DNA from: a virus | Strand: one strand, 5' to 3' | Length of the DNA: 49,880 nt | Virus record (IMG/VR): IMGVR_UViG_3300044974_000378 | Coordinates: 1-49,880 of that record | In this document: positions 3,983 through 31,400 of the stretch, piece by piece | How the letters are laid out: each line of letters starts with the position of its first letter | Numbering within the stretch: position 1 is the first letter of the stretch | The notes under the pieces: model-generated | Database searches by the model: none | Seen by the model: only the letters and a program-made list of their open reading frames with translations | Told to the model about the DNA's origin: nothing | Translations under genes and position numbers: made by a program

Positions 3983-3984
3983 CT

Positions 3985-5169: not shown

Positions 5170-5179
5170 AAATTAACAC

Positions 5180-6349: not shown

Positions 6350-6354
6350 GAACT

Positions 6355-7566: not shown

Positions 7567-7575
7567 ATTAGAGAT

Positions 7576-9708: not shown

Positions 9709-9742
9709 TATATGGGCTTCTACAATCTTTTATAAAGATGTT

Positions 9743-9809: not shown

Positions 9810-9876
9810 GTATATAAAACGCTATTTTCTATACATGAGCTTGTTAATATGTATAAAAACTTAAAAAACATTAACT

Positions 9877-9990
9877 ATGAACTGGAGACAAAGAGAAAAA
9901 GAGAAATACTCTTATTATGTTACTGGTATAACATTATCAGTAATCTTAATTGGGCTAATTAGTCTTATTATTAATAACTTATTTTTTTAA
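9877..9990 (+). CDS. Single-span membrane miniprotein
   Basis: A 37-residue open reading frame with a charged start (MNWRQREKEKYSYY) followed by a clear hydrophobic segment of about 20 residues (VTGITLSVILIGLISLII) and a short NNLFF end. This is a normal layout for a one-helix inner-membrane protein with a basic cytoplasmic N-terminus. An A/T-rich leader precedes the ATG. Function unknown; small membrane peptides in phage accessory regions often act in superinfection exclusion or lysis control, which is only a suggestion here. Confidence 0.5.
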   Translation: MNWRQREKEKYSYYVTGITLSVILIGLISLIINNLFF

Positions 9991-10002
9991 ACAAAAACAA
10001 TA

Positions 10003-10200
10003 ATGGAAAAAACATTAGCAGAAACAATAAAAATTAACACAGCACAACCTACATGGAAGATCGTGTTTAAATCTGATGGAAAAGAAAGTTTAATTGATTT
10101 TCCTAATGAAGATTGGCATATTATAGCCAAAGTACTACATGAAATTCTTCTATCACATGGTGTTAAAAGTGTATTAACTGTACAAAATAAAATAGAATGA
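10003..10200 (+). CDS. Hypothetical small protein
   Basis: A 65-residue soluble protein with the pattern TWKIVFKSDGKESLIDFPNE followed by a helical half. No family is recognised. Its stop codon overlaps the start of the next gene by four bases (ATGA), so the pair is translationally coupled. It begins 12 bases after the membrane miniprotein, from an A-rich leader typical of this phage. Confidence 0.5.
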   Translation: MEKTLAETIKINTAQPTWKIVFKSDGKESLIDFPNEDWHIIAKVLHEILLSHGVKSVLTVQNKIE

Positions 10201-10448
10201 TACTATCAATAACAGCGCTTATAGCAAGTATACTAGCATTAGTTTATCAGGTATATACTAATCGTGAAGAAAACAAACGATGGGATGAATATTTTGAAAA
10301 TCAGAAAAAACAAAGACAAAAGGAAGCCCTTATAAAGATGATGTCAGATGATGCTAAAGACAACCTATATCAAGAAGGTGAAATGATAATTGAACATAAA
10401 GGAGATAGGGAAACATATATAACTTTTAAACAAAATGATAAAGAATAA
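10197..10448 (+). CDS. Small membrane-anchored coiled-coil protein
   Basis: An 83-residue protein. Residues 2-19 (ILSITALIASILALVYQV) form one membrane segment at the N-terminus, followed by a strongly charged helical part (residues 22-50, rich in Glu, Lys, Arg and Gln) likely to form a coiled coil, and a short beta-like end (YITFKQ). The topology is probably N-out/C-in or an uncleaved signal anchor. The layout resembles spanins and small phage membrane proteins, but no lipobox or lysis partner is visible, so function stays open. It is translationally coupled to the gene before it. Confidence 0.5.
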   Translation: MILSITALIASILALVYQVYTNREENKRWDEYFENQKKQRQKEALIKMMSDDAKDNLYQEGEMIIEHKGDRETYITFKQNDKE

Positions 10449-10480
10449 GGGGTAATTTTTACCACATAACCTTTAACAAA

Positions 10481-10843
10481 ATGAACGAGTTAGTAAAATT
10501 TAAAAATAGGCTTAGCAAGATTGGCTACGAGATTAATCTTGAGGGAAACATACCATGGATATATCTTGATTCAGTTAATGGAAACAAAATAAAGCCTGAT
10601 GATTGGGTAAATGCAAACCACGGATACTGCATAGCTTGGTATCCTGTAAGAGATGATGATGAACTAACGCTTAATTGGCAGGACATGGAGTTAACTTTTA
10701 AGTTAATTAGAAAGTATGGTAAGCCTATTCATAAGTACAATAATGGGATAGGAGCTACGCTATGTCATGATTGCGGAATGATTATATCTGAGGGATTAAC
10801 TAAAGATATGAAGTGCGAAAAATGTTTAATATTTTATCCATAA
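10481..10843 (+). CDS. Hypothetical protein with C-terminal zinc ribbon
   Basis: A 120-residue protein. The N-terminal part is rich in Trp and Asp, with segments such as IPWIYLDSVNGN and CIAWYPVRDDDEL. The C-terminus has two cysteine pairs, CHDCG near residues 95-99 and CEKC near 111-114, spaced as in a treble-clef or ribbon zinc site. I recall similar proteins in Bacteroidota phages but no function is known to me. Zinc ribbons of this size often bind nucleic acid or protein partners. The upstream gap has the short repeat GGTAATTTTTACC. Confidence 0.55.
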   Translation: MNELVKFKNRLSKIGYEINLEGNIPWIYLDSVNGNKIKPDDWVNANHGYCIAWYPVRDDDELTLNWQDMELTFKLIRKYGKPIHKYNNGIGATLCHDCGMIISEGLTKDMKCEKCLIFYP

Positions 10844-10860
10844 TCGGGTGAAAACCGATT
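10842..10860 (+). promoter_or_regulatory. Short hairpin after the zinc-ribbon gene
   Basis: AATCGG (10842-10847) pairs perfectly with CCGATT (10855-10860) around a GTGAAAA loop. A second GGTGAAAAAC follows at about 10868. There is no T-run, so it is not a standard terminator. It may be an mRNA stability or translation-control element, or chance. Confidence 0.25.
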
Positions 10861-10888
10861 AAGTATGGTGAAAAACACATAATTTAAT

Positions 10889-11098
10889 ATGAATCAGGAG
10901 AAATTTGAAAAGCTATACGAACCTAAGCAAAAAAAGATATTGCTTTTAATACCTTTCTTACAAGAAAAGCCACGCCCTTTGATGTCAATAGCCAACTTGT
11001 TAAGCGTTCATCCTAAGTGGGCATCCTCTTACATTAGGGACTTACGTAAATTAGAAGTAGAAGTTAAAAAAAATGAATATAAAAAATACTACATATGA
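10889..11098 (+). CDS. Small winged-helix-like protein, putative DNA-binding
   Basis: A 69-residue basic protein (many Lys residues). The stretch KILLLIPFLQEKPRPLMSIANLLSVHPKWASSYIRDLRKLEVEVKK reads, in parts, like a winged-helix/HTH fold: a first helix, then MSIANLLSVHP as the turn-entry helix, WASSYIRDLRKL as the recognition helix, and a short beta wing. No invariant residue confirms this. Its stop codon overlaps the next start (ATGA). Possible role as an early transcription regulator in the accessory block. Confidence 0.45.
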   Translation: MNQEKFEKLYEPKQKKILLLIPFLQEKPRPLMSIANLLSVHPKWASSYIRDLRKLEVEVKKNEYKKYYI

Positions 11099-11328
11099 AA
11101 GCAACACTACACTTTGAACACGAGGAGCAAGATGAGCTCCAAGACGCCATCAATGGTTTTAAATGGAGGCTTATAGTTTGGGAGCTTGACCAAGACCTAC
11201 GCGGTATAGTCAAGCATGGATACATCGGCAACCGAGAGGCTACTGACGCAGAGATTGCAATGGCTGACTACTGCCGAACAAAACTTAGACGATTAGTTAG
11301 TGATGATGGATTAAATTTAGAAGCATGA
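11095..11328 (+). CDS. Conserved small phage protein
   Basis: A 77-residue acidic protein starting MKATLHFEHEEQDELQDAI, followed by WRLIVWELDQDLRGIVKHG and a helical end. I recall this general type (a short N-terminal strand, EExxEL..A.....W, D..LR...K) as a frequent hypothetical in phages of Bacteroidota. Its gene is less A/T-rich than its neighbours, which could mean recent arrival. Start and stop overlap both neighbouring genes (ATGA on each side), so the block is tightly coupled. Function unknown. Confidence 0.55.
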   Translation: MKATLHFEHEEQDELQDAINGFKWRLIVWELDQDLRGIVKHGYIGNREATDAEIAMADYCRTKLRRLVSDDGLNLEA

Positions 11329-11432
11329 AAAATAAAAACAGAGATATTCAAGAACTAAGTGCTTATGGTACTATGATAATAGTAAGTATACTGGCTATTA
11401 TTTTAATTTTTGCATTTATTTTTAGATTCTAA
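11325..11432 (+). CDS. Single-span membrane miniprotein
   Basis: A 35-residue open reading frame beginning inside the preceding stop codon (ATGA) and ending with TAATG, so that its stop overlaps the next start. After a charged start (MKNKNRDIQ) it has one hydrophobic segment (TMIIVSILAIILIFAFIF) long enough to cross a membrane, with a terminal RF. Tight coupling on both sides argues that it is a real gene. Role unknown; it resembles the miniprotein at 9877-9990. Confidence 0.55.
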   Translation: MKNKNRDIQELSAYGTMIIVSILAIILIFAFIFRF

Positions 11433-12118
11433 TGCAACGAAATAAAGCTTATTGGATAGATAAATTAGGTGAAGATTGGACAATAGCCCTAAAAGATATC
11501 TTAAAAAGTCCGTACATGGACAGACTTTTAAACTTTTTGGCAATGGAAGCAGCTTTTAAGAGCATATATCCTAGCAGCAAAGATGTTTTTAAGTATTTTA
11601 AAGAAGTTAGTCTAGCCGACGTAAGAGTAATAATTAGCTACACGGAGCCAGGAATAGACTCAAGTATCTTTCCTATGGATCGTAGTGATCAGTATATAGA
11701 CTCTTACCATCATGCTAACTATATGAAGATTTCTGAATGCGTAAGTCGTGAGTACCCCGACAATGGCGTGTTTAATTTTGATCATTTTCCTGAAGAATGG
11801 ATTCAACAGGGAGTATTATTGCTTCCAAGAGCTCTTACTGTTCCTACACAACAAGCTGGTGCACATCTGGTGCAGTGGCGTAGGTTTTATGAAGCCGTTG
11901 TGCAAGCAGTAGTTAGGGAAAAGCCAGGAGTTGTGTGGTTTTTATGGGGAGACGAAGCTAAGCAGTATTCTGGTAGTCTACCCAACCAGTATGTTTATAG
12001 CTGGGAGTGTCCTAGTAAAGCTGTTAAGCAAAACAGAGACTGGCATTGCCCTAATTTTAAACAAGCAAATGAACTTATAAGTAAATTAAATGGAGATAGT
12101 TTTCAAATTACCTGGTAG
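11432..12118 (+). CDS. Uracil-DNA glycosylase-fold protein with altered active site
   Basis: A 228-residue protein with the outline of family-1 uracil-DNA glycosylases: YPSSKDVFKYF, then a VRVIIS strand at the position of the catalytic motif, then WIQQGVLLLPRALTVP, VVWFLWGDEAK and a C-terminal FKQANELI helix. The key residues differ. The GQDPYH water-activating motif reads YTEPGI, the uracil-reading Asn of LLLNxxLTV is Pro, and the HPSPL loop is CPSKA. So the fold looks kept but standard uracil excision is unlikely. It could be a catalytically dead or changed-specificity homologue, perhaps with a binding role; vaccinia D4 shows that such folds can serve as polymerase processivity factors. The gene overlaps its neighbours on both sides. 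Confidence 0.7.
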   Translation: MQRNKAYWIDKLGEDWTIALKDILKSPYMDRLLNFLAMEAAFKSIYPSSKDVFKYFKEVSLADVRVIISYTEPGIDSSIFPMDRSDQYIDSYHHANYMKISECVSREYPDNGVFNFDHFPEEWIQQGVLLLPRALTVPTQQAGAHLVQWRRFYEAVVQAVVREKPGVVWFLWGDEAKQYSGSLPNQYVYSWECPSKAVKQNRDWHCPNFKQANELISKLNGDSFQITW

Positions 12119-14453: not shown

Positions 14454-17400
14454 CTACTTATCAAAGATAGTACTGCCTGTGCGGTATGCTTTAATAACTT
14501 GTACAGGACCAGGTAATATTTCTCCTGCGTGTACTGCCCATTTAGCATCTCCTTTAAAAGGACCAGAGCGGAACTCATCATTTTCAGGATCATCATCAAA
14601 GTTTTTCTTGATGTCTGATACTAATTCATAAGAATCTTGTACTAAACTTGCCATAGGAATAGCTGTCTTAGTAAGTTTTTCAAATTCTAGTGGGTTAGTG
14701 TAGAAAGCAATATCTGTACGAAGGCGAATAGTCTGGTTTAATAACATATTAGTTAACATTTGGTCCTCATCATCGTCTTCTATAGCAGCTTTTAAAAGCA
14801 ACGCTACTCCCATTAAACCTAACATAATGTGAAGCTCCATCATGTTTTTACGCATGTTGGCGGCGTCTACTTCACTAAACCTACCATCAAAGTTAGGCTT
14901 CATAAACATTAGCTTTCTAGCTAATTGTTTAAGAGAATACAGCGTATCTTCTACGGCAGAATACTGAGTTTGCATACCACCTAGTTTACCTGCAATTATT
15001 CCTACACCTGCACCTATTAAGGTACCGATACCTGGTAACATCATAGTACCTATACCTATACCTGCAGTAGTAAGCTGCCCCATAGTATAACTGCGGTACC
15101 TACCTTTACGAATATAAGGTTCATCCATACCGTAGCTTAGCATGTCATCTACTTTCTCGCCTTCAAATCTGTTGGCAAAACCTTCAAACATCCAAGTCCT
15201 AAACTGCGTTAGAGCTCTACCTGCGGCGGTGGATTTAACTTTGAGCTGATTGTTGTAATCACCGTGAGTCATCTCACTGATGCGTTTAATCTTTTGGATT
15301 ACTTTAGGAATATCGGCATCTGTAGTATAACCATCTTTTAGCTTAGCATCTTGTCCCATAGCATCCCAAAGACTAACGTCATTACCTTCAGGGTCCTTAG
15401 CTTTCATGTCCATCATTACGGCAATCATGATAGGCGCCTGGTTTAAGTACTCAGAACGTTGTTGTAGGGTAAATGGTCCAAAACGCTTTAGTTTAGAAAG
15501 ACTAGACTTTTGCGAGTTGTCAAACAATTCATTAGCAGATGTCTGTAAAATATCCCAATCATCCATCAAGCTTCTAATCTTAGTAGCAACACCGTTAGGA
15601 TCATTAAATAAAATATCAGCTGATAAGTTTCTACCTATAGAATTAAGAGTAAGAATATAAGCTCTACGTAGATTAGCAGTTTTCATTAACCTACCGTCAG
15701 CTGCCTCAATCATGTTAGCAATTGCGCCAAAACCGATGTTTGAGAAACTACTCATTAAGTTCCACCCTAATCCTTTTAAAGTGCTAAACTTTAGAGCAGT
15801 ATCTACAACACCACTCATAGTACGGTAACCCCCTAATGCATCGATTTGTGCTTGTAGAAAAGTTTTTTCGTCTTCATCTTCTTCTTCAGCAAGTAGTTTT
15901 TCTAACTCTTTTTTGCGAAGTTCTTCTTCTTTAGTGTAGAGTTTAGTTTTAGTAACGCCTTCTACTTTACGAGTACCAGTGCCGTAAAAAGTTTTAAGGA
16001 AGAAATCTAAACCATCATTTAGGTTTTGGAGATCTTTTTTAACAACCGCTTGAGTTTCTTTACCTACAGTTTTAGTCTGTATTTGTCCTGCACGGTTAGT
16101 CTGCAATTCTTTACGTTGTCTAAATGCTTGCTCTACTAACTTAATCTGCGGTTCGATATTAGTCTTGTGTTTGTACGCCAAGACATTGAGCGCATATGCT
16201 TTAAGCACCTTACTGATATCCCAAGATTTGTCTTTAGATAACATGTCTCTAGCCTCCTCTTTAAATCTTTTACGATCTTCAGCTGTTGGCGGGTTACCAG
16301 TCTGTTGTCTAAATGCGATACTTTTTTCGCGCACTAAATCATTAACTCTAGAATCAGTATCTTGGATATATTGTATCTGCACACTTTGCTCGATATCGCC
16401 TGTAAGCGGATCAATATCAGAAGTAATGCTAGTAGCAAAGTCAGTAGTAGTTTGTAATTCCTTAAATTTATTCCATAGTGGTGTAATGCCTACCATCATT
16501 CCTTTTTCGGAAAATAAGTCTAGTAAACTTTTTTCTAAAGTAGGAAGTACTCCCACTCCCATAATACGTTTTTTCTGTGGAGGAAGTACATAGTTTAAGT
16601 TTTTAAGCGTCTCTTTAATAAAATTATGATAAGCTAAAAGATCTTCATCGGCTTCAATCTTATCAAAGTTTTTATCATACCATCCTGTTTCTTTACCTGC
16701 TGAAAATCTTTTAGGTACCTGGATAATATATTCCCTAAGACCATGAACTGAATAATAAGTATTGTCTGACTTTATACGTAAAGACGGATCCTCTTGCATG
16801 TCCATTGTAGCATAAGGAGAGTTTTCTCGCAACCAGTCTCTAAACTTAGCATCCTTTTCATCTTGGGACCAAACAGGATTATTTTGAATACTATCAAAAA
16901 CTACAGTACGTTCTTGTTGGAATTTGTCTATTTTCTTTTTAGCCTGCTCGAAATATAAATCGTATCCTTTTTGACCTAATTGTTTTTTTAGTTCCGCAAT
17001 ATGTGCATCTTTTTCGGCTTCTGTAAACGTTTTATAGTTATACAAAAACGTATCTGGCATAAGACTATCTTCAGGTATGCTATCAGGAAATAGCATACGT
17101 GGATCAAACATAATAGTGTTTGCCTTTGTCCAATCAAAGAAGTTTTTAATTAGCGCCGAGTCTTTTTTAGTTTTTCCTGTATTTGTGTCGCGACGATTAA
17201 ATGCTTGGTCAATTAGTTCATTACGTTTTTTGTAGAATTCATCAGAAAATCTATCTACTAAACGACCTGTTTCTAATCCTGCAGCAGTGCGTTGCTTTAA
17301 AATATCATAATTATTACCAGATTTTTTAAGAAACTTAGTAGTTAACTCATCTAGTTTTTTAAAGATATCATTTGCTTCTTGTTGTGCTAAAATATTAGCA

Positions 17401-18461
17401 CGTTCTACAGCACTAAATGCAGAACTCAACATTGGATCTCCTAAACGAGAAAGATTAAGAGTTTCTACAGAAAGTTTATTAGCATCAATAAGGTGCTTGT
17501 AAATTTCATCTTGTGATAAATTTCTACCAGAGTGTTCTCGCACAAAAGCAGTAACATGCTGGCGAGCTAGAGTTATTAGTCTACTTTGTAAGTCTGCTGC
17601 TTTAGCAGCGCGGCCCCTAAACTCTTCACGAATTGCTGGAGTATCAAACTCATACTGATCGAGAATAATGTGCTCATCTGCAGGCGTTGAAAAATCACCT
17701 GCCTTAATCCATAAGTTTACAATACGTTGTGCGTAAGTAAGGTCGTCTGCACTAACAGCAGGATTTTTAAGCAGCTCTTCTACTTCTTTTAACTGTACAT
17801 CACCAAACTGTAGTACTTCTTCAAATCCTTCAATACCTTTAGAACGCACAATACGTCCTTCAGCCTCATCAAGTTCTTGTTTAAGTTCTATGATGTTACC
17901 TGTAATAGTTTTCTTCTTATCAGCTGTATCAGCTTTTTTAAGCAAATCTTTTTGACGTATAAACTCTGTTTGGAGTTTTTTAATACGAACTTTTTCAGAA
18001 GCCTCTACCTGATACGGCGCAGATGGAATGATATCTGAGCTATCAAATAAATCTAGCTGTCGGACCTGCTCTAAAATCGATGCGTTTGGATATGTATTAA
18101 CTAGATTTTCTACCGCCATCGGTTCTTGACGGCGTAGATCTCTTAGTTGTTGCTGTGCTTTGTTTACTGGTAGGTAGTTATACTTCATTTCTATCTTGAA
18201 AGTATTACCCCAAGCACGTGTAGCTTCAAAACTATGAGACGTGTTATTACGTTGGTTGTAGTTTCTTAGCTTACTTGCTAATCCTGCAGTGTTTTCTAGA
18301 GTTGGTTGGAAGCCTACAGCTTTTTTAATTTCTGTTGTAGGTCTTACATCTGGCATTTGGAAATCGTTGAAAGCAAAAGCTCTGTGGGCGAGGTCTTCTC
18401 CCACTTGCTTTACTAGCATTTTCCATTCTTTACTGTTTTTATTGGGACAAGCTATAGCCAT
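14454..18461 (-). CDS. Giant virion-associated protein (1335 aa), last gene of the late arm
   Basis: A 1335-residue protein starting MAIACPNKNSKEWKMLVKQV. I recall this N-terminal CPNxxSxEWKxLV pattern from other giant proteins of crAss-like and related large phages. The long middle part is helical and coiled-coil rich (DLRRQEP, a Lys/Glu-rich region near residues 860-890 with EEEDEDEK). Near residue 1080 there is a MTHGDYNNQLKV plus FRTWMFEGFANRFEG segment that I have seen in giant virion proteins. A strongly hydrophobic Gly-rich stretch around residues 1130-1160 (AGIGIGTMMLPGIGTLIGAG) could insert into membranes, and a second one (MLGLMGVALLLKAA) follows. This fits a DNA-ejection or channel-forming cargo protein, made late with the polymerase proteins. 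Function is inference. Confidence 0.6.
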   Translation of the reverse strand: MAIACPNKNSKEWKMLVKQVGEDLAHRAFAFNDFQMPDVRPTTEIKKAVGFQPTLENTAGLASKLRNYNQRNNTSHSFEATRAWGNTFKIEMKYNYLPVNKAQQQLRDLRRQEPMAVENLVNTYPNASILEQVRQLDLFDSSDIIPSAPYQVEASEKVRIKKLQTEFIRQKDLLKKADTADKKKTITGNIIELKQELDEAEGRIVRSKGIEGFEEVLQFGDVQLKEVEELLKNPAVSADDLTYAQRIVNLWIKAGDFSTPADEHIILDQYEFDTPAIREEFRGRAAKAADLQSRLITLARQHVTAFVREHSGRNLSQDEIYKHLIDANKLSVETLNLSRLGDPMLSSAFSAVERANILAQQEANDIFKKLDELTTKFLKKSGNNYDILKQRTAAGLETGRLVDRFSDEFYKKRNELIDQAFNRRDTNTGKTKKDSALIKNFFDWTKANTIMFDPRMLFPDSIPEDSLMPDTFLYNYKTFTEAEKDAHIAELKKQLGQKGYDLYFEQAKKKIDKFQQERTVVFDSIQNNPVWSQDEKDAKFRDWLRENSPYATMDMQEDPSLRIKSDNTYYSVHGLREYIIQVPKRFSAGKETGWYDKNFDKIEADEDLLAYHNFIKETLKNLNYVLPPQKKRIMGVGVLPTLEKSLLDLFSEKGMMVGITPLWNKFKELQTTTDFATSITSDIDPLTGDIEQSVQIQYIQDTDSRVNDLVREKSIAFRQQTGNPPTAEDRKRFKEEARDMLSKDKSWDISKVLKAYALNVLAYKHKTNIEPQIKLVEQAFRQRKELQTNRAGQIQTKTVGKETQAVVKKDLQNLNDGLDFFLKTFYGTGTRKVEGVTKTKLYTKEEELRKKELEKLLAEEEDEDEKTFLQAQIDALGGYRTMSGVVDTALKFSTLKGLGWNLMSSFSNIGFGAIANMIEAADGRLMKTANLRRAYILTLNSIGRNLSADILFNDPNGVATKIRSLMDDWDILQTSANELFDNSQKSSLSKLKRFGPFTLQQRSEYLNQAPIMIAVMMDMKAKDPEGNDVSLWDAMGQDAKLKDGYTTDADIPKVIQKIKRISEMTHGDYNNQLKVKSTAAGRALTQFRTWMFEGFANRFEGEKVDDMLSYGMDEPYIRKGRYRSYTMGQLTTAGIGIGTMMLPGIGTLIGAGVGIIAGKLGGMQTQYSAVEDTLYSLKQLARKLMFMKPNFDGRFSEVDAANMRKNMMELHIMLGLMGVALLLKAAIEDDDEDQMLTNMLLNQTIRLRTDIAFYTNPLEFEKLTKTAIPMASLVQDSYELVSDIKKNFDDDPENDEFRSGPFKGDAKWAVHAGEILPGPVQVIKAYRTGSTIFDK

Positions 18462-18467: not shown

Positions 18468-21400
18468 TTATTTACCACAAATTAACAAATATTTTTGATA
18501 CATGTCTTCATCCATTTCTCTTGTTGCAAGAGATTCATCGGAGAAAGCACGGTTGAATAAATCTAAATCTTCTGGAGAAGGACCTTGGTCATCTTTATCA
18601 CTAAAGTTAGATGGGAAAGGTTCTGAAAGACTAGTACCTCCTGTAATTTTACTCATGTTTAGTCCCTGAGAAAACTTATTAGGATTAGAAGCATCTATAA
18701 CTAATTTCTCAGAAGCTCTTGACATAGCTACGTAAATCAATGATTGTAACTCTGAACCTACTTGAACATCTCCCTGCATTAATTTAGAAGAAGATCCTTT
18801 TGGTAAGCTAATTGCGTCAAAGAATACATTTTTAACAGTCGATCCTTGAGATTTATGAATAGTTACAGCATGTCCGTAGTCTATCCCTTTTTCTACATAT
18901 AACTCAGGATTACTACGACGAATTGCACTATGAGTAGTTGAGTTATATTTTTCTAATTTATTAGTATTTGGGTTGTAGATATAATCATCTCCTAATACAT
19001 TATTAGCAAAAAACTTAGCCGTCTCATTTTGTGCTGCATAATAGTCTGTCCATTTTCTTGGATTCTTTAATGCAGCTTGTTTAGCTTGATACAACCTAAT
19101 AAATGTCTCACTGGCTTCTTTATTATTTTTTTCATAATCCTCACTATTCAAGTCTTCAAAATTAAATGAGTCTGTTGCATTTAGTTGCAAGTATCTACCT
19201 CTACTATTTGCAACAGCGCCTTGAACTCCTAGTTCTTGAAGTTGTTTTAATTTTTGTGAAGAAGCTGAGATTACGTAAGCACTCCCATCTTTTTCTACTT
19301 TATCTATAGTATACCGTATACTATTAGCTATATCGCCTTTTTCAATTTGTTTAGATGAGTATCCTAAATATCCTACAATAATATCTCCTTCTTGCGGGTC
19401 ACCTTCTCTACCTAGCAATCTTCTAATTTTAGAATTAGTACCTTCAACTGCTTTATTAGTATACGAAATAACTAAAGTATTTTCAGGATCTTCTTTAACA
19501 GTAGCTACTAATTCGCGATTATATGCAACATCGGATAAATACTTAATCTCTTCAGTATTTTCTACACGAGGAATGAGATTTGTTTGGGTATTACGTAGTT
19601 TAGTAAGAACTGATAGAATGCTCTCACTTTCTGTACGTTTAACTTCTGTTAAAGTTACTTGTTCGTTATCTGTAAAAGCTTTAGATACTTGTTTAAGTGT
19701 AGGATTAGTAACGTCTACTTCAGGGATTTGTTTAATATCTCCCATAAAGATGATTTTAATATCCTGTTTTTTGATAGCATCTTTAATTAATGCATAGTCC
19801 TTAGCACTTAGCATAGATACTTCATCAATTACAATGATATTGTCAGCAAACCCTAATCTATCTTTTAGTTTTCTTGTAGGTCCTGCAGCTTCTAGTCCCG
19901 TATCTCTATCCTTTATTTTAGCAAAAGCTGATTGTACAGTCATTGGTAATTTTTTATTACCAGATTTAACAGTAGCAAATGCTAACTCTGCTGTAGCTGC
20001 GTGTGTAGGAGCCATGTACACAAAATTTGCGCCTGTTCCTAGGTACTTTTGTAGATAACCAATTACAGCAGTTTTACCTGTACCAGCAGCTCCTTGCAAA
20101 GTAATATACTTTTCTTCTGATTTAGCAAAATCGACTAAACGTTTAAGAGCTTTATCTTGTCCTTCTGTAAGTACAAATTCTGTATCTATACTTTTACCTT
20201 TGTACTCAAATTTGTTTTGCGTAGGAGCAGCATTTCTTCCTGCTAAATCTTTTTTAGCAGCTTTAATAGCTTGTTCTAAAGTTTCTACTCGCTCAGAAAT
20301 AATTCCGTCTTCTTTTTGTTCTACATCATAAGTACCGTCTTCGGCTTTATAAAAACGGTAGCCTGCTTCTTCTAGTTTACTTTGCTCTTCAAGAATATTA
20401 GTAGATGTAGTTGGAACTAATTTAAACCCTACGTAAGTTGCTGAACTATATGTTTTTCCAGTTGCATCTTCTGTACCAAAAAACTCTCCGTTCTTTATTG
20501 TTCCGTAAATCATTATCACCTTATCACCATCTTCTAAAGTAAGACGCACTCTTTTAAACACTCTATCCGCTGACTTACTTTTCTTAGTAATAGTGACATT
20601 ACTCATTTTGGCTACTCTAAAAGTTTTATCCTTGTATAATCCGTAATCAGAATAAACCATAGATCCTACTTTAATCTCATCTTGTGCTGTAGGAGTTTGT
20701 GTGCTAATGTTAATATTAGAAGTAAGCCCTGGAGCGGGTTCAAAGAATATACCTCCTTCAATTTCTTTACGTTGGGTAGAATCAATTAGGTCAATAGTTT
20801 CTTTAACTGCAGAAGCTAAAGCAGTACCTGGTTTAATGTCAATACCCAAAGAGTTTAAAAGTTGTAACAACAAATCTTTGAGCTTATCCATCATAGATTT
20901 GTCTTCTACTTGCACTTTATTTAACCATGCTTGAAAACCTTGATCAGTAAGCGCCATGGTAACAAACTCTGTAAGCTTGATAGCACCGTAGTATTTACTT
21001 CTATCTGCAGCATCTGCAAATGGTTGTCTTGTAGCAGGGTCTGCCTTTGCCCAAATATTATAATTATCAATAAATGTTTGCAGCGCATTTCTATTTCCTG
21101 CATTATCTAAATAATTAATATAACTTAGTTGCAAAGCTTTTAAATTATCGATAATATTTATTTGCTCTGCACTTAGATTATCTGTATTACCGTTTTGATA
21201 ATCTCTAATTGCATCACCAGTAAAAGTATGTATTAACTCATGAGCTAAAGTATTAGCAACATCATTAGCGGTTTTATGGTTACTATGGTTAATATTTATA
21301 GACAATGTCTTATTATCATAACTATATTTTCCTTTAAGACCTGCTTGTTTAGAAAACTCAAACTTAAATCCTTCTGGGAATGTTAATCCATGTAACTTTT

Positions 21401-24400
21401 CTAAAAGTAGTCTATTAGTAGTACTAACAGTAGGGTCGGATAGTAATCTATCGATAAGGTCATCGAGTGCTCGTTTACCTGACATGTTTGTATCTACACC
21501 TAGTTGATTAGGTGGAGTTTGTTGTACAGGATTGTTTACAATATTAGGATCAAATGTCTTAGTAGGTTTAACAGGAACACCTTGGATTGTGGTACCTGGA
21601 GCAACTACGCTTGGTTTGTTGTCTTTAATCTTAGGTTGATAAACAGGAACAACTACAGCATTCTGTGAGTTATACTGTGTAAAACCATAAGTACCTTGTA
21701 GTACAGGAATACGGTTGTATTTACGAGTAGATTCATCAAACTCGTATAATGCGTACTTAGATTTATTATTCTTATTATCATCTTTGATAGTTAAGAAATG
21801 CGTCTGTGTCTCAGTCATATCTCCAGATACAGGATCTACAACACTTACAAAATTTCTTTCTAATGCTTCTTTATCTAACTCAAATGATTCTGGAACTGTA
21901 CTTACTTTACCTTTTAAGTCGCCAAGAGATATTGTTTTAGCAAGGTTTGGATTATTTTGAATGTATTGACGAGTAAAACTACTAGGCATGCTATAAATAG
22001 GGTTGCCTAAATCGTCAACTATTCCACCAAAAGTACGTTCAAAATCAAAAGGAATTCCTTGCAGATAGTTGCCAAATCCTAAAGTTTTTAAGTATCCAAT
22101 AGGAATATAGCGCATGTATTGTTTAGAACCTTGAATACCGCCCTCTAAGAAGGCCGCTGTGATAAGATCTTGGGCAAGAAGTCTAGTAGTATATTTAATA
22201 CCATTAAAATCATTGCCTTCGCTATCTACTAAAGGAACGTTTTTAGAAAGTAAGTATGCAAAACCTGCATAAATACTGCGCTCGTCAAAGTTAGCGGCGT
22301 TACTTGATTCAAAGTTAATTCTTGAAACATCACCATTACTGTTAAAGTTAAACGTAAGTTTGTTTAAGAATTGGTTATTTTGGTACCAAGGTTGAGTAGA
22401 TAACTCTTGTAGTATAGTAGCAAGACTTTTGTTCTCACCTTCTTTATCGATAAATAGTCTTGCTCTTTCTTCATCTGGATTGCCTAAAAATAAACTACTT
22501 CCCTCATTAGAATAAAAGTAAGACTTAATATCTTGAAAAATATCGTTTTGTACATCAGCTAATCTTGTACTACTAGCAAACACTTTGTCTCCACTAGGAA
22601 TATGCTTGAGGATTTCTTTAAATGTTTTCTGGAATCCGTCAGTATTATATGGAAAATACGTAGAGTATATTTGATCAGCAAACATAGTTCCGTACTTAGA
22701 AGCGTAACCATTTATAGTAGTAGGCGTAAACTCTCCTTCTTCTATTGTGCCTAGTAACTTACCAGCGTTAAATACATTAGAGAGTGGTAGATTTTGAATC
22801 TGAGTTACTTTAGTATTTGTTTCTAGCAAAGACTTAGGAACTCCTTTAGAAGCAGTGTTAACAGCTGACTGTATTTTCTTGATCTCTGCACCTATTCCAT
22901 CAAGTTTAATAAACTTATCTAGGATCATTAGCTGACCAATATTATAATCAGTAGACTTAGTAGGATTAAACTTATCACCTTTTAGGTTTTCTAAAAGTTG
23001 TTCTCCAGACATGTTGCCTAGTTTTTCGTAAGCTAACTTTTGACTTTCTGAAGCACCTTCTAACTTATTTTCAGGATCGTATTTTTTAGTAAGCTCTTGC
23101 ATCAACTCTGCTTGGAAGTCGGCGTTATACTTACTAGTAGTAGAACGGTTAGATTTTATTCGATCCAAATATTCCCAAATAATATCTTGGGTAATTAATC
23201 CTGCTATATCTGTCTCTTCAAAACCAAAGATTACCATAGCACGTATTGCGCTAAAGGTATCTGCGTTGATGTTCAGTTTATCAAGGATTTGCTCTTTTTC
23301 GTTATCCACTGCAGTAGACTGTAATGCTCGGATAATTGCTGATTTAAATTTAAGAGATTCTTTTTCTTCTTTAGTAAGTTCACGTTTCTCTGCTTTAGCT
23401 TTATTAATAAGAGCCTGAGATTTAAGAGTATACGGATTAGACATATCTCCTTTAGAAACAAATTCACCAAAAATTGCTACGGGCATATTAGCCTCCATTA
23501 ATTCTGCAGCAGTAGGAATACGTGGATTCATTGGTGTACCAAATACTTCTGCATAAGTTTCAGCGTCTAAGTTTTGATATACTAAATCTTTGCCTTGCGC
23601 ACTGGCATTAAGAGTGGAGTCAAGGGAAAATGCACCTACTCCATCTTTACCTGCTGTTGCGTTAATATACTTAGTACGTTGATAAATATCTGAAAGAATA
23701 GTAATAGGTACAGGGTTGGCGCCTTTTTCAGAACGTATTTTACTTACTTCTGCAGCTAGATCTGTGAATTCTCCAGAACCATCAAGGGCAATAATACTAG
23801 CAATCACATCAGGATTAGTACTAGTCATAATGTCTAGATGGATATCTAAGATCTTATTTTGCTTAGCAGCTACATAAGAACGGTTTAACACTGATATACG
23901 ATCAATTAACATTTTTATATCATCCTGAATTGCTATAATCTCACTTGCTTGCTGTGCTAATACAGGATCTATATCGTTTTTCTCTTCATTAGAGTCTACA
24001 GTATTTTTAATGTAGTCCTTTAGAATTTTATTTTGCTCTTTAGTAAGGTTTAAACTTTCTCTAAGATCTTTTAAAGATTCTTGCGCAATTTTAATCTGCG
24101 CTTCTATTTTCTTAGGATCTGATAAAAAGTTAGTGTAAAGTTTACCATTTTGATAATAGTGATTGTACATGTATGTGTACAACTTATCGACGTCAAAGTC
24201 GGATCCCATTTGCTTAGTAAAGTCTCTAGGAGCTAGTATCAAATCTCCCATTGCTTCTGGTAAAAATCCTACGATTTCTACTGCAGCCATAGAGTTACGG
24301 CTTTGAGTAGGAATACGGAATCCAAATAGTTGAAGTAGTTTTTCAGGAACTTTAGTAGTATCTAGTATCTTACGGCCGTCTTCATCTACAGTCATAAATT

Positions 24401-25001
24401 CCTCAATGCTTAGAATTTCTCCACGCTCATTACGAAATTTAAATGGAATCATAATTTGAGCAGGCAACATTTTACCTGTTGTAGGGTCTATACGCAATGG
24501 TTGTAATCCCTTAGTAGCATCAAACTTAGAGGTAAATACGATAGCAGAGTCTTTTAAATATCCTGTTGCAGCGTCACCTTGTTTAATACCTTCTTCGGAA
24601 CCAAGTACGTAAGAATTTCCTGCAAACTTTTGCTTGACAACTTTATTAGTAACGAGTGACGTAAGTAAACTTTCGAACTTATCAGCATAAGGAGAAGCCC
24701 ATAAAGGAATCTTAAAGTTTTGTTTGTCTTCTGTTAACTCTAAGGCAGACAGCATGTTAGGTGCGTATCCCTGACGAGTTTTAATTTCTTGAGCAAGAAT
24801 TTCTGCAAGTTTGATTGCTGGGATTGTAGTTCGTTCTATGATTTTCTTGTCAGCAACTTTTACTTTGGCACTATCTTTTTTAAATCCTGGTAGATTTAGT
24901 TTGTCATTAGCAACTAAAGTATCTAAAAGGCCCTCATTTAAAAGTGCCTTAAATTCATTTTCAGAGACCCAACGACCTCCTACAAAATACTGACAAGCCA
25001 T
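18468..25001 (-). CDS. Giant fusion: RNA polymerase beta-prime-like catalytic region, metallopeptidase domain and SF1B helicase
   Basis: A 2177-residue protein. Residues about 1-700 contain the crAss-type RNA polymerase core: FGFRIPTQSRNSM near 228-240 and MGSDFDVDKLY with DFDVD at 268-272, equivalent to the DFDGD metal site of the cellular beta-prime subunit. About residue 1250 starts a metallopeptidase-like domain with HELIH at 1254-1258. A barrel-like region follows near 1450-1530. The C-terminal 560 residues are a complete SF1B helicase of the Dda/RecD2 type: GAAGTGKT (1637-1644), IDEVSML (near 1726), GDIKQIPE, HKSQGST (near 2048) and VAMSRASEK (near 2090). Motif order and spacing are intact. 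In phi14:2 a related polymerase is packaged in the virion and transcribes early genes after injection. A beta-like half is not obvious in this chain; it may sit in the 2765-residue protein upstream. Confidence 0.8.
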   Translation of the reverse strand: MACQYFVGGRWVSENEFKALLNEGLLDTLVANDKLNLPGFKKDSAKVKVADKKIIERTTIPAIKLAEILAQEIKTRQGYAPNMLSALELTEDKQNFKIPLWASPYADKFESLLTSLVTNKVVKQKFAGNSYVLGSEEGIKQGDAATGYLKDSAIVFTSKFDATKGLQPLRIDPTTGKMLPAQIMIPFKFRNERGEILSIEEFMTVDEDGRKILDTTKVPEKLLQLFGFRIPTQSRNSMAAVEIVGFLPEAMGDLILAPRDFTKQMGSDFDVDKLYTYMYNHYYQNGKLYTNFLSDPKKIEAQIKIAQESLKDLRESLNLTKEQNKILKDYIKNTVDSNEEKNDIDPVLAQQASEIIAIQDDIKMLIDRISVLNRSYVAAKQNKILDIHLDIMTSTNPDVIASIIALDGSGEFTDLAAEVSKIRSEKGANPVPITILSDIYQRTKYINATAGKDGVGAFSLDSTLNASAQGKDLVYQNLDAETYAEVFGTPMNPRIPTAAELMEANMPVAIFGEFVSKGDMSNPYTLKSQALINKAKAEKRELTKEEKESLKFKSAIIRALQSTAVDNEKEQILDKLNINADTFSAIRAMVIFGFEETDIAGLITQDIIWEYLDRIKSNRSTTSKYNADFQAELMQELTKKYDPENKLEGASESQKLAYEKLGNMSGEQLLENLKGDKFNPTKSTDYNIGQLMILDKFIKLDGIGAEIKKIQSAVNTASKGVPKSLLETNTKVTQIQNLPLSNVFNAGKLLGTIEEGEFTPTTINGYASKYGTMFADQIYSTYFPYNTDGFQKTFKEILKHIPSGDKVFASSTRLADVQNDIFQDIKSYFYSNEGSSLFLGNPDEERARLFIDKEGENKSLATILQELSTQPWYQNNQFLNKLTFNFNSNGDVSRINFESSNAANFDERSIYAGFAYLLSKNVPLVDSEGNDFNGIKYTTRLLAQDLITAAFLEGGIQGSKQYMRYIPIGYLKTLGFGNYLQGIPFDFERTFGGIVDDLGNPIYSMPSSFTRQYIQNNPNLAKTISLGDLKGKVSTVPESFELDKEALERNFVSVVDPVSGDMTETQTHFLTIKDDNKNNKSKYALYEFDESTRKYNRIPVLQGTYGFTQYNSQNAVVVPVYQPKIKDNKPSVVAPGTTIQGVPVKPTKTFDPNIVNNPVQQTPPNQLGVDTNMSGKRALDDLIDRLLSDPTVSTTNRLLLEKLHGLTFPEGFKFEFSKQAGLKGKYSYDNKTLSININHSNHKTANDVANTLAHELIHTFTGDAIRDYQNGNTDNLSAEQINIIDNLKALQLSYINYLDNAGNRNALQTFIDNYNIWAKADPATRQPFADAADRSKYYGAIKLTEFVTMALTDQGFQAWLNKVQVEDKSMMDKLKDLLLQLLNSLGIDIKPGTALASAVKETIDLIDSTQRKEIEGGIFFEPAPGLTSNINISTQTPTAQDEIKVGSMVYSDYGLYKDKTFRVAKMSNVTITKKSKSADRVFKRVRLTLEDGDKVIMIYGTIKNGEFFGTEDATGKTYSSATYVGFKLVPTTSTNILEEQSKLEEAGYRFYKAEDGTYDVEQKEDGIISERVETLEQAIKAAKKDLAGRNAAPTQNKFEYKGKSIDTEFVLTEGQDKALKRLVDFAKSEEKYITLQGAAGTGKTAVIGYLQKYLGTGANFVYMAPTHAATAELAFATVKSGNKKLPMTVQSAFAKIKDRDTGLEAAGPTRKLKDRLGFADNIIVIDEVSMLSAKDYALIKDAIKKQDIKIIFMGDIKQIPEVDVTNPTLKQVSKAFTDNEQVTLTEVKRTESESILSVLTKLRNTQTNLIPRVENTEEIKYLSDVAYNRELVATVKEDPENTLVISYTNKAVEGTNSKIRRLLGREGDPQEGDIIVGYLGYSSKQIEKGDIANSIRYTIDKVEKDGSAYVISASSQKLKQLQELGVQGAVANSRGRYLQLNATDSFNFEDLNSEDYEKNNKEASETFIRLYQAKQAALKNPRKWTDYYAAQNETAKFFANNVLGDDYIYNPNTNKLEKYNSTTHSAIRRSNPELYVEKGIDYGHAVTIHKSQGSTVKNVFFDAISLPKGSSSKLMQGDVQVGSELQSLIYVAMSRASEKLVIDASNPNKFSQGLNMSKITGGTSLSEPFPSNFSDKDDQGPSPEDLDLFNRAFSDESLATREMDEDMYQKYLLICGK

Positions 25002-25006: not shown

Positions 25007-25483
25007 TTATTTATTAAGTAGTTCTTGATCGAACAACAACATGTTATCAGTAAGCGCTAGACGTGCAAGCAAATCCATGTATTCACCTACTGCTCCTACT
25101 TGATGAGTAGTAAAATCTTGTAGCAATAATCTTACTTTCAAAGAAAGATCCATTTTACATGCAGATGTTTCGTATGCCATTAGCAAATCACGCTCCATCT
25201 CGTATGCCATTTCTAAGGCACCTTTAACATCTGTGCAATCACATTGCACAGCATCTAAAGCATCGGTAGATAACTCACCTCCTAGATTATTACAGAACTG
25301 CTCGATCTTATTGTAATGATCACGTTCTCCTAAAGACTCTTCTGTAAATAACTTTTCAGCGCCAAAGTAACCAGCAGTCTTCATACGGTTTGCTAAGTGC
25401 AAATACGTATGAGAAGCAGTAAGTTCTAGACGTCCGAATTTATTAAGTTCTTTTTGTTCGATATCGGTAAGTAGCTTTTCCAT
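25007..25483 (-). CDS. Ferritin-like diiron protein
   Basis: A 158-residue four-helix protein that matches bacterial ferritins in length and order. The diiron/ferroxidase ligands appear in place: E20 (RLELTASHTYLHLA), E53 and H56 in SLGERDHYNKI, E97 (or E95) in AYEMERDLLMAY, and Q128 in DFTTHQVGAVGEY. The helix-joining GGEL segment is also present. Ferritins oxidise Fe(II) and store iron or lower oxidative damage. Here the gene sits between two giant virion genes, overlapping the upstream gene by one base and starting the next after five, so it is made late with them. Cys64, Cys81, Cys83 and Cys109 are unusual for ferritin. It might protect packaged DNA or polymerase, or be a virion component. 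Both are inference. Confidence 0.75.
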   Translation of the reverse strand: MEKLLTDIEQKELNKFGRLELTASHTYLHLANRMKTAGYFGAEKLFTEESLGERDHYNKIEQFCNNLGGELSTDALDAVQCDCTDVKGALEMAYEMERDLLMAYETSACKMDLSLKVRLLLQDFTTHQVGAVGEYMDLLARLALTDNMLLFDQELLNK

Positions 25484-28400
25484 TAATCACAATTTTTAAA
25501 CTGGTCATTCTCGTCGAAGAAGTAATTAATCTTAGAGTCTACTAAGCCCTCAACGATTTTATCAAAGTTTTGATTTATAAAGTTAATTCTTTCTAGGTTA
25601 TCAGCACCTATTTCGTCCTCAAATTCTTGTAAAGCAGTCTGTTTCTTAATCGGCGATTTGATTTTAGAGATAGCATCCATCTGTTCTGATATCTTTGTAA
25701 CCATCTCTGGATCCACTTCTACTTCATTAAATTGTTCTAAAACATTATCTGGGGTAATTTCTTCGTAAAGACCTAAACGTTTAGCAAGTTTTTTCTGATT
25801 GTACTCAAATAAATCTTGGTATGCGCTATTGTATTCATTCATTAAGTCTTGACCCGTTTTATCTTTAGTTATTTGGACATCTAATAAGTCTACAAACAAC
25901 AATGCTCGTTCTTGGGTACCAACGTTGACTTCATTTTTCTCTCGGCTATACGGTACATCTTGCTGAATCCTAAAGTTACTACGATCTAATACTAAAGTAT
26001 TCTCAGGTTTAACTTCAAAGTTATCTAAAACATTACCATTGTCGTCAAACGTTTTAATCTCATTAGTAACAGCTCCTACTTTGTTAGCAGTACCAAAAGA
26101 TGCTCTAACGAATTTAGGTTGTCCGTCTGGACCTATTTCATTAGATACACTCTCTTCGTACTTTTCTAATCCTTGACGGATTTTGTCTATCTGCAAACCT
26201 GCAGTAAACTGTGGAAGTAGTGGAAAGCTGGAAGACTTAATGTATACACGGCGGTCTGCATTGTCTTCTACACTAGTCATGTTACCTACATACACAGGTT
26301 TCATAGGCTGCATTACTAGGCCTAACTCTTCATATGTAAGTTCTGTGTTTTTGTTTATAATGCCTGCAGATTGCTGAGTAAGCTTCTTGTTAATAGTGTT
26401 AAATTGGAAATCTGTAAGGCGTCCCAGTTGGTTTAGTACATATAAATGCTCTTTCCAAGTAGTATATTCCTGAGCATCGGATCCTTCTATTTCACCGTAA
26501 CCCTTTTTGCCGTCACTATAGTCTTTGTTGATCTTTTCAAAAAATTCTTTTTGTATAGAATCTTTAAGGTTATTACTCTTGAGTTTTTTATCTTGTAAAA
26601 ATACTTGTATATATCTGTTGTTAGCACTATCTGCTAACTCTAATCCTGGTGCAATATCTCCAGCAAGACGTTTACCCATATTGATAAAAGTTGCTGATAG
26701 ATTCTCTAAAGAACTATTACCGTCTTTAAACTTAGCATACAATGCAGGATCACCTGTAAACAACTTCATCATTTCGCTGTTAGCGATAAGGGAGTTGAAT
26801 ACATAATCTGTAGCAGCAAAACGTACCCTAGCAGCTTCTCCCACACCTTTAGCAATGTTAGACATGTAAGTAGCATCTAAGAAAGTGTACTTATCAGTTA
26901 CACGTCCTTTAGCATCTTTTAAAGTTTGTCCTATACCAAGGTTGTTCCAGTCTTCTAATTTTCTATCTACTAAAGTATTAAGAGTTTCTTGCAAATACCC
27001 TAGTACAGCCTTTTTAACTTCTGGGTTAACTACAGCATCGTCACCTGAACGAACAAGGTCTCTGTAGTTTTGTGTAACACCATTTACTTCTACTGTGAAA
27101 TCGTTTAAGTCTGGAAAGAAATAAAAATACTCAGGTTCGTATCCTGCAATATCTGATTTTCCTGCCAACACTGCAGCACGGATTCTGTTAATCTCTGGCT
27201 GTACTACTGCTTGATAAAGGCTCTCTAAGTTGGCATCAGTGACACCTTCTGGCGTTACAACTACTTGTTGAGCTAAAGCATTGATTACCAGCATTGTAGT
27301 CTTATCCGACATTGTAGGATAGAAATAAGAAACTTTTCTATAAGTCTTGCCGTCAGCAACTTGTTTGCTTCCGTTAAAGAACATGCCTAGTTTTACTAAC
27401 TCGTGTTCGTCTACAGTAAGTTTGTTTAGCTTACGACCATCTTGTGATTTAGTGTATTGACGTTTAAGAGCTTCAAGAGACAAGTAGTCTACTCCTAAAG
27501 AGCTTCTCATTAAATCTCCTGTCTCACCATCTTGAGTAAGCGCTGCTAACCACAAACTGTCTCGTGTAAAGGAGATTTTTTGAAGCTTGTCGATCAAATC
27601 TTGATTGATAAATTTCTTATTATCACTATCGTAAGCAGTAAGATCTCGCACGCGGTTTACTAGGTAATTATTATTACCGTAAGAATAGATAGTTTTAGTA
27701 CCTGCACGAAAAGAGTTGCTGAATGTGCTAGCAGTGTTAAGCGCTTCTAGTTTAGACAACGCTTTGATTGCAGAATCTTTTAGTAAAGACCTGTCAGCTA
27801 TTGCCTCTGGGTTATTAGCAAGGCTTTTGAGTTCTTCTTTTAGAACTTTAACTAATCCTGAGCTAGCAGTAAAGAGTCCTTCCCAAGATTTACGACCAGA
27901 GTTGCTATACTTTCCAGCTCGTAGGTCTTTGTAAGTTTCATCAGAAAGTGTAATACCAAAATTGCCTAACCACTTAGCTAACTCTTCGTTAGTTACATCT
28001 TTAGGATTTTTTTCCCACTCTGTAGCCGTAGTTACTAAATCGTTTATTACTTCTTGGTTAAAAAGATAATCACCTTCTTCATTAACAAGAATAAGATTAC
28101 TACCTTGTTTCATCAAGTTGCTTCCCCAAGAATCTCTAAGACGTTCTTCAATAGCACTAGAGTTACTTGACCAACGTTGTAATGTGTAGTTACCATACTT
28201 ATCCTTGCTCCACATAATGAATTTCATTCCGATATGATGTTTAGTCGCATCTGATACAAACTCATTTTTAATTTTTTCTGGAGCTTTTTCTAAATTATCT
28301 ATAACAGTTCTTAACCATGGAAATGCTTCTGTGTACAGTTCTAAAGTATCCATTAAAATGTCTAAGTCAGCAGGTTTATTTGCTAACAACATTTTAAGAG

Positions 28401-31400
28401 TCTCATAAACTTGATCAAAAGGAATAATTTCTGGAAACCCTAGTTCGCTAGTTTTTACTTCTCCTGCATTATCTCTTGCTTCTACAAATGCAAAGAACTT
28501 ACGTAAGTCGGCACTTGCTGTAGCTTTTGAGTTGATAGTAAACGCCCAGTCGTCTGAATAGATTGTCTTTTCTAGACCTACTGCTTCTTCATTTTCATCA
28601 AGGTCCATAGCTTCGTCTACTTTTCCTGTAGTCAATACACTCATGTATTGATTTACTAGGGTCTGTAGTTTAGGAAACTGATCGACAATTTTGTCAAGCA
28701 CCGCAGCTTTTTTAGGTAAGCCATTGGCTCTGTAAAACTCTGCAAGTTGTTTTAAGGATTCTTTATGCTCTTCAAATATCGGAAGAGTTTCTATACTTTT
28801 TTTGCCACCAACTTCTTTTTGAGCCAAAGCTCTTTTCATAATATCTGCAGCAATGTACGCTTGCAAAGACTCTTGTGTACGAGGACTAACGCCTTCCAAT
28901 AGTAGTTCTCTAGCCTCAGCAACAATAGTTTCTACTTCGCCTTCTTCTAAAGTTACTAGCGCATCGTCAAAAGTCTCTTCTGATATATCAGTACTGTCTT
29001 TAGTATTACCGTCAACTTTAACTGTTAATCCATTAGGCAGCGTAATAGTACCTGGTTTTTTTGTAGAACGGTCTTTGTATAGCTCGAAAGCTTTTCTAAA
29101 ACTATCGATTGCTTCTTGTCTAGATTCAAAACCTTGTTGTAAAGCTTGGTTTTCATCTTTAAGAAATACTCCATCATCAATATTCTGCACAACAGCTTCT
29201 AAAGTTTGGAGTACCGAAGCAGGAGACTCTGTTTCTTCTAGTTGTGCAATAATTTGCTCAGCGTTTTCAGTAACAGTATCTGCAGCAGGTGTTGGAGTAG
29301 GAACTGTGGGTTGTGCAGCAGTAGATTCTCCTAAAGCAGCAAGTTCTGCGTCAATATCAGAAACTGTTTCATTATACCATTCCTCAAAAGTTTGTGTAGT
29401 TTTACCAGACTGTCTATCCGCTATAAACTCCCTAAATCTATCAAGTGTATTAGTCATAGCTACAATTCCTTGAGCTGCTAATTCTTGTATAATTTCATTA
29501 TCTGTTTTACCATTATTGATTTTTTTATCAATGCTCAATCCTACTCTTTTTATATCAGTAGAATTTCTTTCAAAATTTGAATTAGCTCCTGTAGCATTGT
29601 TTCTTTGAAAAGGTTGTGAATCAATAGTTCTTGATTTATTTCTTCTTTTTTCTATGTCAGCTTTTTGAGCTTCAATGTCGGTAGATGGTGCAGTAGGTTG
29701 GCTTGCTGGCGGAGCACTTGGCGGTGTTGCTGTAGGAGCAACAGGTGCAGGCTTAGGCAATTGATTGGCTGCAAGCTTTTGTGTCTGCAGTTTACCTGCA
29801 AACTTAGTATCAAAAAGAATAGTTGGCTGAATAGTATAAACCCACTTAGGAGCATCTTCTGTGCCGATATTGGCAGAGATTACGTTACTCTTTGTAGAGC
29901 TTTTAATTTGATCTAAATAGCTACGTGTTTCTGTCTCTCCTTCTTTGTTTAGTACAATTACCGCAGGAATGTTTTCTTGAAGAGCTTCAATTCTTACGTT
30001 GCTTACCATTTTTGCTAACACATGTCGAAGCTGTGTAAGGCTTGCAGCGTTTCGTTTTTTACCAAAGTTTGATCCTTCAAAGTTTCTTGAGATTACTACA
30101 CCAAATCGTTGGACTTCAGTACCATCTTGTTGAACATATTTATTCAACATAGTTCCTGGAATACCAAACTCGATGCCTGTTTTAGTAATAGAAAGTAAAG
30201 GCGTTGTAGATTTTAAAACACCGTTAGTTCCTCCTTTCATTAACAGATTCTCAATAGATTGTCCTTTAGCAGGAAAGATATACGTAAACTGTTTAACGTA
30301 ATCTGAAAGTCCTACTGAATCTGTAATATCGTAACCTGTAGCATCACCAATAGCTTTAACTACAGGATTATTAGGATCTCCAGTAAGGTGTGCTTCAACT
30401 GCTAAAACAATAGAGTTAACAGCTTCAGCTGCTAGCCTAGTGCGCTCTAAAGGAATAGCTAAAAATTTATCGGGACCTACTTTAACTACAGCATAAGGAC
30501 GACCGTCTTGTGTCTTTTCTTTATTTAAGATTACGCCTTTTTTACCTAAAAGGTTTTGCTTAGAGTTAGGATATTTAAGGTCTCCGTCTTTACCTACAGC
30601 AATAATTAACTTGTCGTCAGGCATTGCTTCTGAAAGCGGTAAAGTTTTGCCATCAGCAGTTTTAAACAAACGACCAAAGCTTTTATAGTTTACTTTAGAT
30701 TTAACCGTTCCTTTTGCAATAATAGATTTACGGATTAAGTAATTCTTTTGACGGTCTTCTGCAATTGCTTCAGGAGTGTTGTCTAAGTTCTCTGCTTTGT
30801 ACCAAGAGTTGTCATGTACATAGAACACAGTTTCTCCTGACTCAAGAGTAACTTTAATTGGAACCTCAGCAATGTATTCAGGTAATTGGTTTAGGGGAAT
30901 ATTACGGTTCTCAGCAATTTGACGTAGTTCTGCTAAACGTAACGGCCATCCGATTTTCTCACGGGTATTGCTGTTAGGGTCGTATTTGTCTCCTTCATAG
31001 TCATTATCTACAGACATAATTAGTTTGGTACCTGGCAGTAATGCATCAGGATCTAATACTAATTGGTTGTCTTCTAAGGTATCCGTAAATTCTTCACGGT
31101 CTACAGAAAGTACTTCTGTAGTTTGATTAAATTCTCTAGACAAAAATGCTGCACGGTTATGTCCTTCTGCAGCTCTATCGTAGCTATAAATTAAATTACC
31201 ATTGACATCTTGGCCTATTAAATAAGTCTTGTCATTTTGGTTGAGGGACTCTGCAGCATTAGTAGTACGCTTAGCTGCTTCATCAGCTTCTTCAGCTGGA
31301 CGAGGTAATCCTTCTGGTAACTCTGTTTCAGAATCTTTGTTATTCTGATCGTTAGCATCTTTAGCATCTGTACTTTCTTCATCCTCATCCTGATTAAATT

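Follow-up and report, generated by a model that had tools for sequence, protein, structure and literature searches.

The window analyzed here is the whole of IMG/VR record IMGVR_UViG_3300044974_000378, a metagenome contig of 49,880 bases belonging to a crAss-like phage. A single open frame on its minus strand, running from position 25001 down to 18468, encodes a chain of 2177 amino acids (open reading frame (ORF) and translation), in which matches to PHROG_16227, PHROG_325 and Pfam delineate three parts, namely a β′-like half of an RNA polymerase core, a zincin-type domain and a Dda-like helicase cassette, followed by a conserved tail (18468..25001; all features described below lie on the minus strand unless stated otherwise). 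A first-pass annotation of this DNA had placed a polymerase, a HELIH domain and a helicase, related to phi14:2 gp66 and Dda, on one chain, and this view was upheld by blastp, profile and Foldseek comparisons. The motifs it had named were found at the given positions of the translation (RIPTQS at residues 229-234, DFDVD at 268-272, HELIH at 1254-1258 and GAAGTGKT from residue 1637), and the helicase motifs IDEVS, GDIKQ, HKSQGST and VAMSRA were likewise located as claimed. PHROG_16227, a virion structural protein family of more than 4000 amino acids, covers residues 94-1403 of the chain, and a separate part of the same profile matches the C-terminus of the upstream chain (25483-33780).

The β′-like double-psi beta-barrel region occupies residues 62-460 (23622..24818) and is homologous to approximately residues 1176-1551 of phi14:2 gp66, according to profile spans. 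By blastp, residues 27-456 align with gp66 1149-1548 (1.6e-14), with DFDVD lying over DFDID. A profile of the first 700 residues retrieved 6VR4, the gp66 structure, as its sole PDB match (E 1.9e-71). The AlphaFold2 model (predicted local distance difference test score (pLDDT) 85) matches 6vr4_A with a Foldseek value of 1.4e-16, after which weak matches to the large subunits of cellular RNA polymerases follow, in agreement with the fold expected from the first-pass annotation. Within the catalytic DFDVD motif (24186..24200), D268, D270 and D272, as well as the following K273, are invariant across 39 aligned loci. The earlier claim of a polymerase catalytic region is thus correct as to the gp66-type core, but this chain holds only its β′-like half. 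The β-like half was identified by blastp and profile spans at residues 2301-2691 (25708..26880) of the 2765-residue chain encoded upstream, of which residues 2319-2634 align with gp66 856-1127 (7e-18).

Both barrels in one polypeptide, a property of gp66, are therefore not found here, and the core is split over two chains. The same split was seen, by profile spans and gene neighbourhood, in the relatives L006, L019, L022, L023 and L028. Exactly at the split lies a ferritin-like gene of 158 amino acids (25007..25483; PF00210, 1.1e-11), which is present at the same place in all the split relatives examined; L027, which is related to L028 but has an unsplit core, lacks it. More generally, chain boundaries shift often among these phages while the domain order is largely kept. 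Like gp66 and crAss001 gp50, the window encodes homologous β and β′ double-psi beta-barrel regions with a DFDxD motif; whereas gp66 is a single chain without a helicase, the core of the window, with the ferritin-like gene at the split, consists of two chains, a division which resembles cellular enzymes rather than gp66. Judged by homology, the window enzyme is a split variant related to gp66 and not a copy of it. A 29% identical relative of this polymerase region was also observed on a 4.8-Mb contig of the isolate Chitinophaga sp. YR573 (L186), possibly within an integrated element.

As in phi14:2 and crAss001, gp65- and gp67-like proteins flank the polymerase, within a late virion gene block. 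The downstream virion-type protein (14454..18461) is homologous to phi14:2 gp65 and crAss001 gp49 (blastp 5.5e-10 and 8.3e-13). In phi14:2, gp65-gp67 were detected in virions by tandem mass spectrometry, and crAss001 gp47, gp49 and gp50 were found in virions as well (PMC10172136). Since homologues of the chain and of its neighbours occur in these particles, packaging and injection of the window chain are likely and, by analogy, the helicase is likely to be delivered with the polymerase. Among annotated proteins, the first 1400 residues are most closely related to gp32 of Flavobacterium phage FpV4, a virion structural protein which carries both core halves and an HEVIH motif on one chain and no payload; AAA_30 helicase matches in the FpV4 genome fall solely in separate small ORFs.

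The second part of the chain is a zincin-type (HExxH...E) domain at residues 1150-1411 (20769..21554), delimited by profile, conservation and AlphaFold2, with the HELIH motif (translation and alignment) at 21228..21242. When a profile built from residues 1141-1425 was compared with 89 proteins, 74 of them matched, among these FpV4 gp32 and, at its N-terminus, phi14:2 gp65, so that this domain resides on the β′ chain in the window and on gp65 in phi14:2. The glutamate and second histidine of HExxH are invariant in 48 sequences, and a later Glu-Phe is nearly invariant. The AlphaFold2 model (pLDDT 87) finds selecase as its best PDB match (E 0.22, probability 0.87). The Foldseek matches for a zincin fold are weak overall, with selecase and jannalysin at E 0.2-0.7 and Wss1 also among them (overall E 0.2-3), and in L019 a SprT-like profile scores just below the cut-off. 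We therefore refer to this domain as zincin-type and as a putative peptidase.

Such a domain raises the question of whether the helicase is carried as a precursor, to be freed by the zincin-type domain at assembly or after injection, in which case the fusion would serve packaging only. The conservation of HExxH...E beside the polymerase is consistent with this, as are the moving chain boundaries with their largely kept domain order, which look as if the chains were processed, and zincin domains have been proposed as processors of polyvalent proteins in the passages on these proteins in PMC5512222. On the other hand, several long members of the family lack a recognizable HExxH, the model resembles solved metallopeptidases only weakly, and no cleavage site or product is known. 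We regard this explanation as improbable.

The third part is a Dda-like helicase of superfamily 1B (SF1B) at residues 1603-2108 (18678..20195), identified by Pfam, PHROG and PDB sequence matches, with motifs I-VI intact. Searches with the last 560 residues retrieved Dda (3UPU, 9e-14), AAA_30 (2e-21) and the PHROG 'Dda-like helicase' (1.5e-67). T4 Dda and the stand-alone SF1 helicases of crAss-like phages belong to the same family and share motifs I-VI, but are encoded by separate genes. The helicase motifs are kept in nearly all fused copies, and the ratio of nonsynonymous to synonymous substitution rates (dN/dS) of 0.096 for the L040/L042 pair indicates, at the level of codons, that a close relative of the window helicase is under purifying selection.

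Alignment and blastp comparison with four relatives placed this helicase within an exchangeable cassette of approximately residues 1438-2104 (18690..20690). It is followed by a conserved C-terminal tail, FNRAFSDE.LATREMDEDMYxKYLLICGK (18471..18662), matched in L005, L006, L007, L019, L022 and L023. Constancy of the fusion across related genomes, which the first-pass annotation had proposed as a check, did not hold. Three close relatives, L005, L006 and L007, likewise metagenome contigs, are approximately 88% identical to the window up to residue 1430 and have no helicase on the chain. In L005 and L006, the slot contains a NADAR domain (Pfam 2.4e-13 and 6.2e-13; also YbiA 2B3W, 1.4e-8), and in L007 a short linker; no AAA_30 helicase was found elsewhere within the partial contigs of these three. 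At the DNA level, L006 and L007 share 99.99-100% identity outside the slot, without any difference over the 14,320 nucleotides before the site and with 1 differing base in the 10,192 nucleotides after it, and their junction corresponds to a replacement and not to a plain deletion; the two alleles derive from two metagenome assemblies, in which strain mixing at assembly could join real alleles to shared flanks. As these alignments demonstrate, the helicase is not a fixed part of the chain, and in close relatives NADAR or a linker stands in its place.

To place the window among related phages, IMG/VR was scanned with the DFDxD motif alone, which yielded 80 loci, and a second scan used the subfamily of the window helicase, some loci of which overlap those of the first. 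A Dda-like helicase resides on the polymerase chain in 20 of the 80 polymerase-motif loci (L048 and L050 being one sequence). Tails following the polymerase are either short (approximately 50-90 amino acids) or long, and many long tails represent a fused gp65-like protein. Payloads identified among 53 long tails comprise the helicase (19), NADAR (3), cpYpsA-SLOG (2), 2OG-Fe(II) oxygenase (2) and histidine phosphatase (1). The usual order is polymerase, zincin-type domain and payload, with the helicase preceding the zincin-type domain in L079, L085, L086 and L095. Several enzyme domains thus occur per chain in varying combinations, as is characteristic of polyvalent proteins. Two further arrangements were observed: at L121 (9335-20659) the order is reversed, with the helicase, the zincin-type domain and then the polymerase, and in L040/L042, as well as L020, one chain carries polymerase, zincin-type domain, NADAR, a probable 2OG-Fe(II) oxygenase (1.9e-5 in L020) and helicase.

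In all 15 loci whose helicase shares 37% identity or more with that of the window, this helicase lies on a polymerase chain, in one of them (L109) via TGA read-through, and in the scan this lineage was found only on polymerase chains. Hits below 28% identity are mostly stand-alone genes of approximately 440 amino acids. L109 had been considered as a counter-example with a separate helicase, which we rejected as the frame continues across the TGA, as do other ORFs of that contig. The L109 region itself (2440-11737) consists of successive long frames with nothing but in-frame TGA codons between them, which suggests that TGA is reassigned or read through in the late genes of this contig.

The helicases do not follow the polymerases to which they are joined. 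Identities of the two parts are nearly uncorrelated (Spearman 0.18): the window and L040/L042 share 59.5% identity in the helicase and 32% in the core, whereas the window and L022 and L023 share 59% and 55% in the core and only 22% and 24% in the helicase. Approximately unbiased (AU) tests reject a shared helicase/polymerase history in both directions (p 1e-10 to 3e-12), and well-supported branches of the core tree force at least nine gains or losses of the helicase, a count in which L055, where the helicase lies in a 1534-residue ORF just downstream of the polymerase, was scored as lacking the fusion. The conflicting trees and the AU tests led us to reject a scenario in which the fusion arose once and was then inherited. 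As far as trees can show, this strong conflict means that helicases were swapped repeatedly.

These observations also bear on whether the fusion could be neutral or artefactual, i.e. an adjacent helicase gene joined by loss of a stop codon, or an assembly chimera. The metagenomic origin of the window and its close relatives and the frequent shifts of chain boundaries would fit such an origin. Against it stand the purifying selection and the repeated replacement by different helicase lineages. An assembly error, which the first-pass annotation had named as a possible source of the junction, was rejected, since the same fusion recurs in many independent contigs with the conserved tail after the cassette. 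Overall, we consider a neutral or artefactual fusion very unlikely.

We next compared the fused helicase with stand-alone Dda, using contigs of at least 75 kb from the polymerase-motif scan, plus L019. A stand-alone Dda was present in 0 of 10 contigs with the fusion and in 20 of 36 without it (Fisher p 0.0024, kinship ignored). This suggests that the fused helicase is the phage's own Dda, although clade effects may contribute. As the fusion genomes examined have no stand-alone Dda, we infer a relocation of Dda, once encoded by an expressed gene of its own, to the polymerase that is injected.

Based on these results, we propose, with a probability of roughly 0.55, that the 2177-residue protein is the β′-like chain of a two-chain crAss-like virion RNA polymerase, and that its C-terminal exchangeable payload slot holds the phage's Dda, which would act on the incoming DNA. 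Like its homologues, the chain would be packaged and enter the host together with the DNA, and the predicted 5'-3' helicase would travel with the polymerase. From the first minutes, the helicase would clear host proteins from the incoming DNA, or open it, for the polymerase, and a function in early transcription is plausible. It would then serve early replication, as does Dda in T4, where mutants of dda show a defect in DNA synthesis at early times (PMC3016281). Dda would have been relocated in this way from an expressed gene to the injected polymerase. The zincin-type domain may, as a guess, trim the chains. Several points weigh against this proposal. NADAR occupies the same slot as the helicase, which shows that this position is not reserved for helicases. 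Kinship is not taken into account in the Fisher test, only 4-6 independent pairs were available for the pairs test on the tree, and some contigs in the comparison are incomplete. Moreover, no Dda, whether fused or stand-alone, is present in the 84-kb relative L019, indicating that the helicase is dispensable in this clade.

The main rival explanation is that the slot serves to deliver counter-defence domains, which would protect the incoming genome from the immunity of local hosts with no need for a role in transcription. NADAR would then remove ADP-ribose from guanines and 2OG-Fe(II) oxygenase reverse base damage, while SLOG would act on signals derived from NAD and the helicase would clear DNA of defence proteins. 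In line with this, NADAR, 2OG-Fe(II) oxygenase and cpYpsA-SLOG domains are all present on these chains, the NADAR residues are for the most part conserved and include the phage-type TH histidine, and ADP-ribosylation of guanine in DNA is reversed by NADARs of phages and of bacteria (PMC11125620). The difference of the near-identical L006 and L007 precisely at the slot, and the polyvalent-protein concept as set out in the relevant passages of PMC5512222, point in the same direction. However, among the identified payloads the Dda-like helicase clearly predominates (19 of the 53 long tails, NADAR being next with 3) and is not a known counter-defence enzyme, and the way in which it complements stand-alone Dda points to an ordinary function in the phage. 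We hold counter-defence as the general purpose of the slot to be rather unlikely, less so than release from a precursor; both this explanation and the delivery of Dda for action on incoming DNA can hold for different payloads.

Fusions of this kind are not entirely without precedent. The 4775-residue gp_05258 of cr50_1 (MT774375, Suoliviridae), annotated as 'DNA helicase', also joins an RNA polymerase core and a Dda-like helicase on one chain; its helicase is 28% and its core 18% identical to the window, its β and β′ parts are unsplit, and the polymerase part is unnamed in the record. The N4 virion RNA polymerase, as described in the polyvalent-protein passages of Iyer et al. 2017 (PMC5512222), is also fused to a zincin domain, with variable enzymes delivered with the DNA. 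The N4 enzyme is of the T7 type, the partners listed there are ART, lysozyme and PBECR, not Dda-like helicase or NADAR, and these passages do not mention crAss-like phages. In the part of Yutin 2021 concerned with crAss-like transcription-block proteins, a PDDEXK domain is named and an SF1 helicase is listed as a gene (PMC7886860). In our literature search, with figures and non-open papers outside its reach, we came across no account of Dda or NADAR being exchanged on a virion RNA polymerase. The papers covered do not describe the fusion, of which the first-pass annotation knew no earlier account either, while a similar fusion was already public in cr50_1. Taken together, RNA polymerase-zincin fusions were already known from N4, and a slot with swappable helicase and NADAR appears to be undescribed.

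Two further features of the window were observed outside this region. A GIY-YIG homing-endonuclease-like gene (40091-40720; PHROG_314, 1.4e-22) lies among virion protein genes, and a gene at 3985-5169 (plus strand), within the oppositely oriented gene block, encodes a VWA-like DUF2201 protein with a putative metallopeptidase domain (1.5e-18).

In a wider perspective, the chain may represent a general payload rack, a tentative view which we hold with less confidence than the proposal of a delivered Dda. The helicase, NADAR, 2OG-Fe(II) oxygenase, SLOG and unnamed domains would be exchanged at favoured positions of a single chain, even among near-identical phages, as an adaptation to the host for the first minutes of infection, and Dda would have moved from the expressed genome to the particle. 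The split core indicates that phage enzymes can pass between one-chain and two-chain forms of the β/β′ pair. For one branch, a helicase covalently joined to the virion RNA polymerase offers a direct and testable answer, and the natural variants carrying a helicase, NADAR or a short linker on nearly the same chain provide a ready set for comparison. The slot thereby points to where proteins codelivered with the DNA may be sought in this widespread phage group.

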